38,842 nucleotides of DNA from a virus. Both the position numbers and the translations under genes were made by a program. The stretch's first letter is position 1, and each line of letters opens with the position of its first letter. A model generated the notes under the pieces. That model had not been told where the DNA came from. It saw only the letters and a program-made list of their open reading frames with translations, and made no database searches. Positions 20,726 to 38,533 of the stretch are shown piece by piece. The DNA lies in IMG/VR virus record IMGVR_UViG_3300024262_000009, positions 1-38,842 of that record, one strand, 5' to 3'.

Positions 20726-22183
20726 ATGAATGTAAAAGAATATTTAAAAAGTGTATGGAATGATTTGAAGTATGATGAAGGAGGTCAAGTGTCTTGGGGT
20801 GCTATACCAAAATCTTTATATACCAAAAAACCAACACCAGGTACACCGTGGAGTGCAACAGAAAAATCTGCTTTGGCTAAATATTCAACTAAACAAGCAG
20901 CTACATATGAAAGCATATATGGAAAACCACAATATAATATACCAGTAAAACAGCAACCAGTTTATAAAGCACCAGTATATAAACCACCAACACCAGGTAC
21001 ACCGTGGAGTGCAACAGAAAAATCTGCTTTGGCTAAATATTCAACTAAACAAGCAGCTACATATGAAAGCATATATGGAAAACCACAATATAATATACCA
21101 GTAAAACAGCAACCAGTTTATAAAGCACCAGTATATAAACCACCAACACCAGGTACACCGTGGAGTGCAACAGAAAAATCTGCTTTGGCTAAATATTCAA
21201 CTAAACAAGCAGCTACATATGAAAGCATATATGGAAAACCACAATATAATATACCAGTAAAACAGCAACCAGTTTATAAAGCACCAGTATATAAACCACC
21301 AACACCAACTTATCAAGCACCAGCACCAGTAAAAACACAGGCTCAAATAGTTCAAGAAGCACATGCTGCAAGAGTAGCTTCATATCAAGCACCACAGGGA
21401 TTTAATGTTGACCTGTCAGGTATCTGGGAAAAAGCAGGGCAGATGGCTGACAATGAAATCAATCCGCAACTGTCTGAAATTGACAGACTTCTTCAGGAAG
21501 CAGGATACACCGCAGAAGACGCACAACGTGCAATAAGTGAAGCATATCCGGTGGCAAGACGGTCACTGCAGAAATCTATTTATGAAAATATGGTAGCAGG
21601 AGAGCAAGGACTTGCAGCTATGGGAACTGGTCGTGGTGGTGGACGTCAGGAACTACTGGCAAGAGCAGGAGAGCGTGAAGCAACCGGACTTGAGAGTATA
21701 GAGACTGCCAAACAAAGAGAGACTGGCGCGATACAGAGAGCACTGGGGCAGTATCAGGGTCAACTTGGAACTCAAAGGACAGCACTTGTAGGACAGCGGG
21801 GAGGATTGCAGGCGTCATATGCTGAACAGTTAAGAGGCGCAAGATTTGGTGAGGCGTCTACTATGGCAAATTATGGACTACAGTCAGCGCAACTTGCAGA
21901 ACAGGCAAGACAGTTTAATGCTGGCCTAGCAGAAACTCAGAGACAATATAACCAATCACTTACCAGTGTAGGTACAACTGCTGGCGGTGGACAGCCTTAT
22001 GCAACTGCTCCTTCTGGAGCTAGTTATTTTCTTACTGAAGCTGATTTAGCTGCTCTTGGTTTAGGTACTAATGCTGTCAAGTCTACAACAGGCACACCAG
22101 TTGTTAAAAAAGCAGTAACGCCTGCTGCTATATTCCAAGGTAAGCCATCATATCTGCAAGCTTATCAAATGCAAAGGTATTAA
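20726..22183 (+). CDS. Putative internal virion/ejection protein with tandem repeats
   Basis: Residues 1-22 (KEYLKSVWNDLKYDEGGQVS) resemble the start of the next protein. Then three identical 52-residue repeats rich in Pro, Lys, Tyr and Ala (about 36-191; TPGTPWSATEKSALAKYSTK within each). The C-terminal 260 residues are Ala/Gln/Glu-rich and helical, with long stretches such as QRAISEAYPVARRSLQKSIYENM and YAEQLRGARFGEAST. The latter is typical of phage ejection proteins injected with DNA. Strong AGGGGGATT site. Confidence 0.65.
   Translation: MNVKEYLKSVWNDLKYDEGGQVSWGAIPKSLYTKKPTPGTPWSATEKSALAKYSTKQAATYESIYGKPQYNIPVKQQPVYKAPVYKPPTPGTPWSATEKSALAKYSTKQAATYESIYGKPQYNIPVKQQPVYKAPVYKPPTPGTPWSATEKSALAKYSTKQAATYESIYGKPQYNIPVKQQPVYKAPVYKPPTPTYQAPAPVKTQAQIVQEAHAARVASYQAPQGFNVDLSGIWEKAGQMADNEINPQLSEIDRLLQEAGYTAEDAQRAISEAYPVARRSLQKSIYENMVAGEQGLAAMGTGRGGGRQELLARAGEREATGLESIETAKQRETGAIQRALGQYQGQLGTQRTALVGQRGGLQASYAEQLRGARFGEASTMANYGLQSAQLAEQARQFNAGLAETQRQYNQSLTSVGTTAGGGQPYATAPSGASYFLTEADLAALGLGTNAVKSTTGTPVVKKAVTPAAIFQGKPSYLQAYQMQRY
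20831..21298 (+). repeat. Three identical 156-bp tandem repeats in the ejection-protein gene
   Basis: Copies begin at 20831, 20987 and 21143 with a partial fourth at 21299, each 156 bases (52 codons) and in frame. No base differences were seen between copies. This indicates very recent duplication or continuing recombination. Copy number could be misassembled because the unit is close to read length. Confidence 0.9.
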
Positions 22184-35919: not shown

Positions 35920-36258
35920 ATGAATAACATACAAAACAGATTAGTAAATTACTTACAGACTTATTGTTATGGCAAATCTAACGCAATCAGTAAAGACAGG
36001 CTTGCCAGGTATTTTGATATTACTACCAGGGAACTTAGAGATTTAAAAAGGGATATTGTAATAAATGAAGGTATTCCTATCGGTAGCACAAAATCAGGTT
36101 ATTTCTATGCAGCCAATAAATTTGAACTCATGCTATTTAGGGGTGAAAATTATTCTAGGTTTATAAGCCATAAAGTAATGATGGACGCTTACGATTTAAT
36201 GATTTTAAAAGATGAACACACAGAACAATTGAAATTAATAGATGTTAAAACTAAATAA
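35920..36258 (+). CDS. Winged-helix DNA-binding protein, 112 aa
   Basis: Residues about 22-70 make a helix-turn-helix with wing: AISKDRLARYFDITTRELRDLKRDIVINEGIPIGSTKSGYFYA, the HTH_11-like layout in which a GYFYA strand follows. The helical end (RFISHKVMMDAYDLMI) could mediate dimers. It might act in replication or early regulation. Its last 17 bases overlap the methyltransferase start. Confidence 0.7.
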   Translation: MNNIQNRLVNYLQTYCYGKSNAISKDRLARYFDITTRELRDLKRDIVINEGIPIGSTKSGYFYAANKFELMLFRGENYSRFISHKVMMDAYDLMILKDEHTEQLKLIDVKTK

Positions 36259-36460
36259 AATATATTGCGGAGATTGTAAGGTAGTAATGAAAGAGATTGA
36301 TAATGAAAGTATCAATTGCTGTATTACCTCTCCGCCTTATTGGGCTTTAAGGTGCTATCTACCAGATACAGTTAAACTAAAAGATACTATTACGGGAGAA
36401 GAAAAAGAAAGTGTATTAAAAGAATTGACGTTATTAGGCATTAGTAGTATAATAAGGTAA
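36242..36460 (+). CDS. DNA methyltransferase, N-terminal part (split by HNH insertion)
   Basis: Begins LKLNKIYCGDCKVVMKEI and has the catalytic motif CCITSPPYWALR (27-38). The SPPYW form favours N4-cytosine methylation, with the order (SPPY first, FxGxG last) of class beta. Homologues run on into GLExTFEEY within a few dozen residues. Here the frame instead ends at a TAA (36458-36460) overlapping the ATG of an HNH gene. The rest of the enzyme resumes at 36992, so the gene is split into a 72-residue catalytic-motif piece and a large C-terminal piece. They may assemble as two chains. Confidence 0.85.
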   Translation: MLKLNKIYCGDCKVVMKEIDNESINCCITSPPYWALRCYLPDTVKLKDTITGEEKESVLKELTLLGISSIIR

Positions 36461-37008
36461 TGAGAGATAATAAAGGAAAATTTAAAAAGGGCTTTACATG
36501 GAGAAACACCAAACCATATTGGGATAGAGAATGGCTTCTTGTTCAGTATATAACATTGGGTAAAAGTTCTTCCGATATAGCAAAAGAGCAGGGGTGCCAT
36601 CGTAACAATGTTTACTACTTTTTAAAGAAATTTAATATAAACACAAGAACACTTTCGGAGGCAAGAAAAAATAAATATTGGGGACTATCCGGTGTTGATA
36701 ATCCTATGTGGAATAAATTAGGTGAACTAAATCCTAATTATAAAGGTGGAATAACTCCAGAAAGACAAGCATTTTATATAAGCCAAGAGTGGAAATCGGC
36801 TTGTAGTAAAGTTTGGAAAAGAGATAAAGCAACTTGTCAAAGATGTGGGTTGCATAAAGAAACGGATATGCCATTTCATATCCACCATATTAAAAGTTTT
36901 AAGTATAAAGAACTACGTTCTGATATAAATAATCTAATTTTACTTTGTGAAACTTGTCATCAGTGGACACACTCCGGGGGGAACAAAAACAATGATTACT
37001 TACAATAA
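36460..37008 (+). CDS. HTH-HNH homing endonuclease splitting the methyltransferase gene
   Basis: A helix-turn-helix (YITLGKSSSDIAKEQGCHRNNVYYFLKKF, about 29-57) gives DNA binding. A linker with GVDNPMWNKLGELNPNYKGG follows, then HNH: KRDKATCQRCGLHKETD, HIHHIKSF (about 147), and ILLCETCHQWTH. It starts one base inside the stop of the methyltransferase N-part and overlaps the C-part start by 17 bases. The whole insert is about 550 bases, all of it coding, leaving no space for an intron core. HNH codons here freely use NNT before A/G. Confidence 0.92.
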   Translation: MRDNKGKFKKGFTWRNTKPYWDREWLLVQYITLGKSSSDIAKEQGCHRNNVYYFLKKFNINTRTLSEARKNKYWGLSGVDNPMWNKLGELNPNYKGGITPERQAFYISQEWKSACSKVWKRDKATCQRCGLHKETDMPFHIHHIKSFKYKELRSDINNLILLCETCHQWTHSGGNKNNDYLQ

Positions 37009-38533
37009 GAAAGACATACCTGAAAATTTACAAAAATACTTTGAGCCCGCAGAATTAGGCCTTGAATCTACATTTGAAGAATATATTAATAAACTCTGCA
37101 ATATTTTTGATGGGGTGAAACGAATATTAAAAAAAGACGGGACCTGTTGGGTTGTGATTGGAGATACTTATGGTGGAACCGGTATAGGACAAGAAAAATC
37201 AATGGAAAGTAAAAATAAACAAACCGATGGTCAATATGAATTAGCAACAGAAGCAAGAAACTTAAAAAATATAGCCACAAAAGGAATATATGATAAATGC
37301 TTATTGATGATACCTTTCCGTTTTGCAATAGAAATGGTTAATCGAGATACAATGGATATTTATGAGCTTGATAAAAGTTATATTTTATGTAATAATATAG
37401 ATATTACAAATAATATAACTGGAGTACACAATGCCATACAAAGACAAGGAAAAAGCAAAAGAATATTCACGAATATATGCAAAGAAATGGAGGAATGCCC
37501 ACAAGGAACAATACCACAACCGAATGATAAAGTGGCAAGAGGAGAACAGGGACAAGACACATCAATACAGCCGAAAATATTATTGGCTTCATCGAGAACA
37601 GGAAATAACCAGAGTGATGAAAGGAAATACCAAGAGACACAGACGATTAAAAATGGAAGCAATAATACACTATGGTGGAAATCCTCCGAAGTGTGCTTGT
37701 TGTGGGGAGACGATTTATCTATTTCTAACGATAGACCATATCAAAGGGAAGACAAAAGAACACAAAGCAGAATTAATAAAATATGGCTCAATCTACGAAT
37801 GGTTAAGGAGAATGAATTATCCGCAAGGTTTCAGAGTTTTGTGCATGAACTGCAATTGGTCAATCGGGAAATTTGGATTTTGCCCCCATCAAGAGGAAAA
37901 AACCTTTGTATACGCAAACGAGACATCCCCATAGAATTACTACCTTTATTTAAACTATATAAAGAAGAACGATGGTGCTTGAGAAATACGATAATATGGC
38001 ATAAGCCTAATTGTATGCCGGCTTCAGTTAAGGATAGATTTACGGTTGATTTTGAATATGTATTCTTTTTTGTAAAGAATAAGAAATATTGGTTTGAACA
38101 ATTATTTGATGAATATACAGAACCACTAGACAGATGGGGCGGTCCTGAAATAAGAAAATCAAGTCATAAATATATTGAGATTGGCGAGCCCAAACTTGGT
38201 AAATTTGGAGCTACCTCTATGTTTAGAAAGGGTTGGCCAGTTAGACCAAATGAAATAGGACGTAATAAACGATGTGTTTGGCAAATAAAAACAGCACAAT
38301 TCCCGGAAGCACACTTTGCAGTTTATCCAGAAGAATTAATTGAACCGATGGTAAGGGCAGGTTGTCCTGAAAATGGAGTTATAATTGACCCGTTTATGGG
38401 AAGTGGGACAACCGGAGTGAAAGCCAAAAAACTTGGTAGAAATTTCATCGGTATAGAAATAAATCCCGATTATGTAGATATAGCAAACAGGAGATTAGCA
38501 AATACATATTTTCAGCCGGAGTTAATTAAATGA
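36992..38533 (+). CDS. DNA methyltransferase, C-terminal part, with an HNH gene nested in another frame
   Basis: ATG 36992, with GGGGGG about ten bases upstream, begins MITYNKKDIPENLQKYF. The methylase continues: LGLESTFEEYINKL, GTCWVVIGDTYGGTG, IPFRFAIEMVNR. After the nested HNH region come DIPIELLPLF, WCLRNTIIWHKPNCMP, SVKDRFTVDFEYVFFFVKN and the AdoMet motif DPFMGSGTTG (near the end). The true methylase parts flank about 168 codons (37431-37934) whose frame-2 translation has no methylase likeness but no stop. There is no good restart codon after 37934, so C-terminal motifs are reached only by reading through. Activity is unknown. Confidence 0.85.
   Translation: MITYNKKDIPENLQKYFEPAELGLESTFEEYINKLCNIFDGVKRILKKDGTCWVVIGDTYGGTGIGQEKSMESKNKQTDGQYELATEARNLKNIATKGIYDKCLLMIPFRFAIEMVNRDTMDIYELDKSYILCNNIDITNNITGVHNAIQRQGKSKRIFTNICKEMEECPQGTIPQPNDKVARGEQGQDTSIQPKILLASSRTGNNQSDERKYQETQTIKNGSNNTLWWKSSEVCLLWGDDLSISNDRPYQREDKRTQSRINKIWLNLRMVKENELSARFQSFVHELQLVNREIWILPPSRGKNLCIRKRDIPIELLPLFKLYKEERWCLRNTIIWHKPNCMPASVKDRFTVDFEYVFFFVKNKKYWFEQLFDEYTEPLDRWGGPEIRKSSHKYIEIGEPKLGKFGATSMFRKGWPVRPNEIGRNKRCVWQIKTAQFPEAHFAVYPEELIEPMVRAGCPENGVIIDPFMGSGTTGVKAKKLGRNFIGIEINPDYVDIANRRLANTYFQPELIK
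37431..37934 (+). CDS. HNH homing endonuclease nested inside the methyltransferase frame
   Basis: Basic repeats (YKDKEKAKEYSRIYAKKWRN, NRMIKWQEENRDKTHQYSRKYY) followed by HNH: PKCACCGETIYLFLTIDHIKGK (about 86-107) and VLCMNCNWSIGKFGFC. It resembles the gene at 147. All 504 bases lie within the methyltransferase ORF in a shifted frame, which has no stop. Codon choice differs from the other HNH genes: 16 of 16 pyrimidine-ending codons before AA, AG or GA end in C, where T would create a stop for the methylase. Elsewhere T:C is about 31:16 by hand count. Strong sign of overprinting. Confidence 0.9.
   Translation: MPYKDKEKAKEYSRIYAKKWRNAHKEQYHNRMIKWQEENRDKTHQYSRKYYWLHREQEITRVMKGNTKRHRRLKMEAIIHYGGNPPKCACCGETIYLFLTIDHIKGKTKEHKAELIKYGSIYEWLRRMNYPQGFRVLCMNCNWSIGKFGFCPHQEEKTFVYANETSP

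Follow-up and report, generated by a model that had tools for sequence, protein, structure and literature searches.

Endonuclease genes hidden out of frame within phage methylase genes have been described in mycobacteriophages. The ShiLan domain extends actinophage methylases by 202 residues in frame and conceals an HNH gene in the third frame (Arsenault, Gosselin, Gogarten 2025, PMC11855218); a hidden HNH in the actinophage DNA methylase gp65 was also reported by Gosselin et al. 2023 (PMC9957025), and the second published case is an out-of-frame HNH-like ORF in Pacc40 gp60 (PMC11855218). No other reports of such nested elements were found in the open-licence literature. Shuffles of the elements of Mantra, whose gp64 has a copy of ShiLan, and of Pacc40 gave P(0) values of 0.36 and 1.0, respectively, indicating that openness of the host frame is expected by chance in both. 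As an open host frame is little informative in these cases, read-through translation of the methylase had stayed uncertain. Another arrangement is found in Aeromonas phage Aeh1, where nrdA is split by the HNH homing gene mobE without splicing and the enzyme is still active as two polypeptides (PMC2988022).

The sequence analysed here (hereafter the window) comprises positions 1-38,842 of IMG/VR virus record IMGVR_UViG_3300024262_000009 (38.8 kb). A DNA methyltransferase (MTase) ORF on the plus strand (36947-38533, probable start ATG 36992) is open across a gene nested in its +1 frame, HNH2 (37431..37934, plus strand), which encodes a 167-aa HNH endonuclease. An intact 167-residue nuclease inside a stop-free MTase frame had been described from the letters alone (the sequence-only reading) and is confirmed by the ORF coordinates. 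Codon position 1 of HNH2 coincides with codon position 2 of the MTase, and each MTase codon consists of position 3 of one HNH2 codon and positions 1-2 of the next. HNH2 was classed as an HNH endonuclease by its profile match (phrog_2255 HNH, E 9.4e-8) and metal-site residues, with the Cys pairs, D102-H103 and N140 being conserved over 39 relatives. Searches for HNH2 gave no Pfam match and, using both profiles and Foldseek fold comparison, no significant match in the PDB. The ATG of HNH2 is preceded, at a distance of 6 nt, by a Shine-Dalgarno-like GGAG (37421..37424, plus strand). HNH-type genes are unusually dense in the window, with at least nine being present (positions 147, 4033, 16135, 27786, 29429, 30505, 33998, 36460 and 37431). 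Elsewhere, ORF 20726-22183 contains a unit of roughly 50 aa (TPGTPWSATEKSALAKYSTKQAATYESIYGKPQYNIPVKQQPVYKAPVYKP) in three near-identical copies.

The same host gene carries a separate insertion, HNH1 (36460..37008, plus strand; PF01844, E 5.9e-12). This homing-type HNH endonuclease gene splits the MTase upstream of HNH2, and the enzyme is therefore encoded in the window as pieces of 72 and 513 aa. The N-terminal piece (36242..36460, plus strand) contains the motif TSPPYW and closes with a tail, LKDTITGEEKESVLKELTLLGI.., that is absent from uninserted homologues; its stop overlaps the HNH1 start in the sequence TAATG. The second piece (36992..38533, plus strand; PF01555, E 1e-43; motifs IIWHKPN and DPFMGSGTT) restarts at ATG 36992 behind a G-rich Shine-Dalgarno sequence and contains the HNH2 insert. 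Many stops occur in the MTase frame of the HNH1 region, and HNH1 fits the Aeh1 type, its host polypeptides being started separately. The MTase of the window may be non-functional because it is also split by HNH1. The MTase parts bordering HNH1 (region 36242-37050) end in a tail on the N side, LKDTITGEEKESVLKELTLLGI, and begin with a head on the C side, DIPENLQKYFEP; both are similar to the tails found in the split MTase of two other contigs, L068 and L069 (LRDDLTKEEKEYVLKTLINNGI and IPKELLKYFKP). The HNH1 site, near TSPPYWALR, differs from the insertion site of those contigs despite the similar tails. Tails that serve reassembly may thus travel with the HNH1 element itself.

The extent of the HNH2 insert was determined by DNA alignment with L060, a close uninserted relative (empty-site sequence AATCGTGGTTGGATTTTACG), and by alignment of the MTase with 39 uninterrupted proteins lacking an insert at this site, a comparison that the sequence-only reading had proposed. 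The whole insert occupies 209 codons of the MTase frame (37346..37972, plus strand; about 627 nt), replaces one Gly codon and is bordered by FAIEMVNR and W(C/I)LRNTIIWHKPN. A length of roughly 168 residues, as first suggested, is correct for the HNH part and too short for the full insert, which also includes outer-only flanks on the left (37346..37429, plus strand; DTMDIYELDK..CNN..) and right (37935..37972, plus strand; ELLPLFKLYKEER). The best explanation of this arrangement, to which we assign a probability of about 0.78, is a stop-free homing element that is translated through as part of the host MTase, with the nuclease produced from an internal start.

Homologues with and without the insert had been called for as a check on the sequence-only reading, and scans of IMG/VR yielded both kinds. 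The same nested arrangement was present in three further contigs (i.e. L002, L003 and L089), whose uninterrupted MTase ORFs of 599, 652 and about 544 aa, respectively, have TSPPYW 5' of the insert and WHK.N / DPF.GSG 3' of it. HNH2 is 71% identical to its nested relative in L002/L003 and 62% identical to that in L089. A Shine-Dalgarno sequence precedes the nested ATG in two of the three types (GGAG in the window and GGAGG in L002); no clear one was found upstream of the L089 gene. The sample of the nested arrangement is three distinct sequences on four contigs, all from uncultured viruses. Most of roughly 60 MTase loci are without the insert, and the copies are too few for a tree test. Phage and plasmid records searched with the outer insert gave no match, a genome scan with HNH2 detected distant relatives only (none nested) and further scans of viral sequences, for which the outer insert and the right flank served as queries, produced no copies beyond these three contigs.

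Avoidance of stops in the MTase frame was examined through the codon choices of the nested gene. All 16 pyrimidine-ending HNH2 codons that precede AA, AG or GA end in C, whereas the remaining pyrimidine-ending codons are 31 T:16 C; both counts are exactly those of the sequence-only reading. Its statement that the other HNH genes of the window use T freely in such contexts also holds, and extends to other window genes, with counts such as 25 T:5 C; read in the equivalent frame, these genes have stops at a density of about 8 to 16 per 100 codons. A null based on shuffling of the synonymous codons of HNH2, which had been suggested as a check, gave a mean of 8.1 stops with a minimum of 2 in 20,000 shuffles, and a null drawn from window codon usage gave a mean of 17.8 stops with a minimum of 6 in 10,000. 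Open frames are therefore rare, and not common, under these nulls. When the three nested sequences were shuffled, about 8 stops were expected and zero was never reached in 20,000 shuffles of each.

The relatives behave in the same way. No stops occur in the MTase frame of the nested copies in L002/L003 and L089, where 12/12 and 13/13 stop contexts, respectively, have C. Pooling of the three nested types gave 0 T:41 C in stop contexts as compared to 101 T:54 C elsewhere (p=4e-16). Avoidance of TpA/TpG was considered as a source of this C bias and ruled out, as dinucleotide-matched non-stop contexts in the three genes take T freely (26 T:15 C vs 0 T:41 C; p=8e-11). The stop contexts occupy 27 codon positions between codons 3 and 163, of which 17 are found in one type only, indicating that the bias is not one inherited pattern. 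Simulated divergence of the HNH among the three sequences introduced 6-9 stops on average, with P(0)<=0.0007 in every comparison. Nearly all free-standing HNH relatives have 1-29 stops in the corresponding frame; the sole stop-free example, L119, is a short GC-rich segment. The suggestion that selection preserves both frames is thus upheld by the shuffled nulls, the dinucleotide control and the two further independent stop-free nested types, and these comparisons support the conclusion that selection keeps the MTase frame free of stops across the nested nuclease gene.

An open frame could also have arisen through chance or composition following a recent insertion into a now-dead gene. Open alternative frames are common in GC-rich phages, as the Mantra and Pacc40 shuffles illustrate, but the contigs examined here are AT-richer (GC content of 0.46 for L002 and 0.38 for L089), and for all three sequences the shuffles do not reproduce openness. 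A dead gene is, moreover, at odds with purifying selection on the flanks of the insert. In the parts lying outside the HNH gene, comparison of the window with L002 gave a pS of about 0.7 and a pN of about 0.12, in the MTase frame only. Frame-wise counts of synonymous and non-synonymous changes place this purifying selection in the first 17 codons of the left flank as well as in the right flank, and the motifs DIYEL (left) and ELLP.FKL (right) are conserved. We regard the dead-gene explanation as highly improbable.

Amino-acid selection on the outer frame within the HNH overlap was also assessed and was weak and mostly non-significant; the outer residues are at most weakly conserved beyond the constraint imposed by the HNH gene (P 0.03-0.29, identity). 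The simplest reading is that selection acts mainly on openness in the HNH-overlapping part and on sequence in the flanks. When the L002 MTase was modelled with AlphaFold, its core matched M.RsrI, M.BceJIV and MboIIA, and insert residues 172-296 have pLDDT values below 50. A strand is predicted at IYEL (163-166), in the left flank, and a helix-strand at LELLPL-FKLHK (351-361), in the right flank; in this model, the strand and the helix-strand may pair with each other as a stalk.

A further explanation is that the MTase is made in pieces, with an N-terminal part and a restarted C-terminal part that reassemble, the open frame being a relic or an accident. HNH1 provides a precedent in the very same gene, as does the split but active nrdA of Aeh1. 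In addition, a distantly related HNH occupies the HNH2 site in L068 and L069, where the MTase frame contains stops and the gene is split. The C-part of the MTase is restarted there (MLELPLDKIPKELLKYFKP), and its head (IPKELLKYFKP) resembles the right flank of the HNH2 insert; like HNH1, these two contigs fit the Aeh1 type. Restart of the MTase C-part is, however, not indicated in the nested copies, which contain no ATG, GTG or TTG from the HNH stop to the conserved W-LRN motif. The host frame of HNH2 is continuous, and stops are avoided over the entire HNH gene, including 5' of every possible internal start. Production of the MTase in separately started pieces is accordingly considered unlikely for HNH2, and translation straight through the insert remains the preferred reading. 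A third form of insertion was detected in L084 (2500-3100), at about the HNH2 site, where a homing-endonuclease-like insert (WLAALTDGEGC, phrog_5046) also leaves the frame open. Here, the endonuclease, which has a LAGLIDADG-like motif, is fused in the host frame, whereas HNH2 lies in another frame. The nested HNH2, the split L068/L069 and the in-frame L084 forms mark this MTase loop as an insertion hot spot that homing genes exploit by three different modes.

Excision of the insert as a self-splicing intron of an undescribed type, or as an atypical intein, with HNH2 as its homing endonuclease, would be in keeping with the conserved insertion site, a feature of both introns and inteins, and with the frequency of HNH genes in phage introns. 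Only about 120 nt of the insert lie outside HNH2, however, and an intron would not need the open host frame that is maintained here through avoidance of stops. No intron RNA core was matched in Rfam at the gathering threshold or at a relaxed E<=1. The insert translated in the MTase frame gave no match in Pfam or PHROG, to intein families or otherwise, and its ends (D..R|W) are without intein splice residues. The claim that HNH2 persists without intron or intein agrees with this lack of Rfam, Pfam and PHROG signatures, and excision appears very unlikely, although less so than a dead gene.

Evidence bearing on mobility was obtained from L002 and L003, in which the inserts are identical at 618/618 positions while the nearby MTase sequence is 79-83% identical. 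Identity extends roughly 40 nt to the left and at least 100 nt to the right of the insert. This pattern fits homing or transfer with co-conversion, and is suggestive only, because other identical blocks occur in these mosaic genomes. The terminase-like ORFs directly 3' of the MTase look intein-containing in both contigs (L002:4321-6291, with one block; L003:3596-6754, with two blocks) and, judging by these intein-like blocks, both loci are rich in homing elements.

The mechanism that we favour, i.e. read-through of a stop-free element, can be outlined as follows. A conserved site in the gene for a phage beta-class N6/N4 DNA methyltransferase would be occupied by a homing element, about 0.6 kb long, that is removed neither as RNA nor as protein. 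The HNH endonuclease would be translated in the +1 frame from its own internal start, while the host frame, selected to be free of stops, would allow ribosomes to read the MTase straight through. The product would be an MTase with a surface loop of roughly 205 residues, in which the conserved flanks (IYEL.., ELLPLFKL..) probably form a small stalk closing the loop and the HNH-overlapping middle would serve as a permissive, mostly disordered linker. In this scheme, the MTase would tolerate an insert of about 209 residues and remain active, and HNH2 would be a functional nuclease that allows the element to home to empty sites.

Comparison with the described systems places the HNH2 element beside ShiLan. 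Both enlarge a phage DNA methylase in frame by about 200 residues, leave its frame stop-free and are mostly filled by a complete out-of-frame HNH ORF, and neither shows signs of an intron or intein. The distribution of the HNH2 element may be patchy, as is that of ShiLan. In contrast, HNH2 and the hidden HNH of Mantra gp64 are not detectably related (BLASTP E 0.17) and represent different HNH types. The methylase subgroup and the site also differ, with the Mantra gp64 insert being located at the KPSHEPVVVARKP region. The HNH lies in the third frame in Mantra and in the second frame for HNH2, and starts at a GTG without a ribosome-binding site in the former and at an ATG, preceded by a Shine-Dalgarno sequence in two of three types, in the latter. 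Conserved outer-only flanks are a feature of the HNH2 element, and its open frame, unlike those of Mantra and Pacc40, is not expected by chance. Pacc40 gp60 likewise has an out-of-frame nuclease ORF within a methylase gene, but the nuclease is of another type, the host protein is a helicase-methylase and shuffling never yields a host-frame stop. Aeh1 mobE shares with HNH2 the location of an HNH homing gene in a phage enzyme gene without splicing and differs in the division of its host gene. Given the absence of BLASTP similarity to the Mantra HNH, the HNH2 element has the same kind of arrangement in another element family, and is probably of separate origin.

The three stop-avoiding types, together with selection on the flanks, constitute direct evolutionary evidence of host-frame translation across a parasite. 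Convergence is suggested, as an unrelated HNH at another site uses the same trick as ShiLan. The occurrence of nested, split (L068/L069) and in-frame fusion (L084) forms at one MTase loop makes host-sparing modes directly comparable. More tentatively, and at somewhat less than even odds, frame-neutral homing elements may constitute a third general route into coding genes, besides introns and inteins, that has arisen at least twice (i.e. in the HNH2 family and in ShiLan). In the HNH2 family, dedicated stalk peptides would then enable folding of the host enzyme around a loop that is dual-coded and kept stop-free by selection, and the split relatives that share its site may be an evolutionary intermediate.
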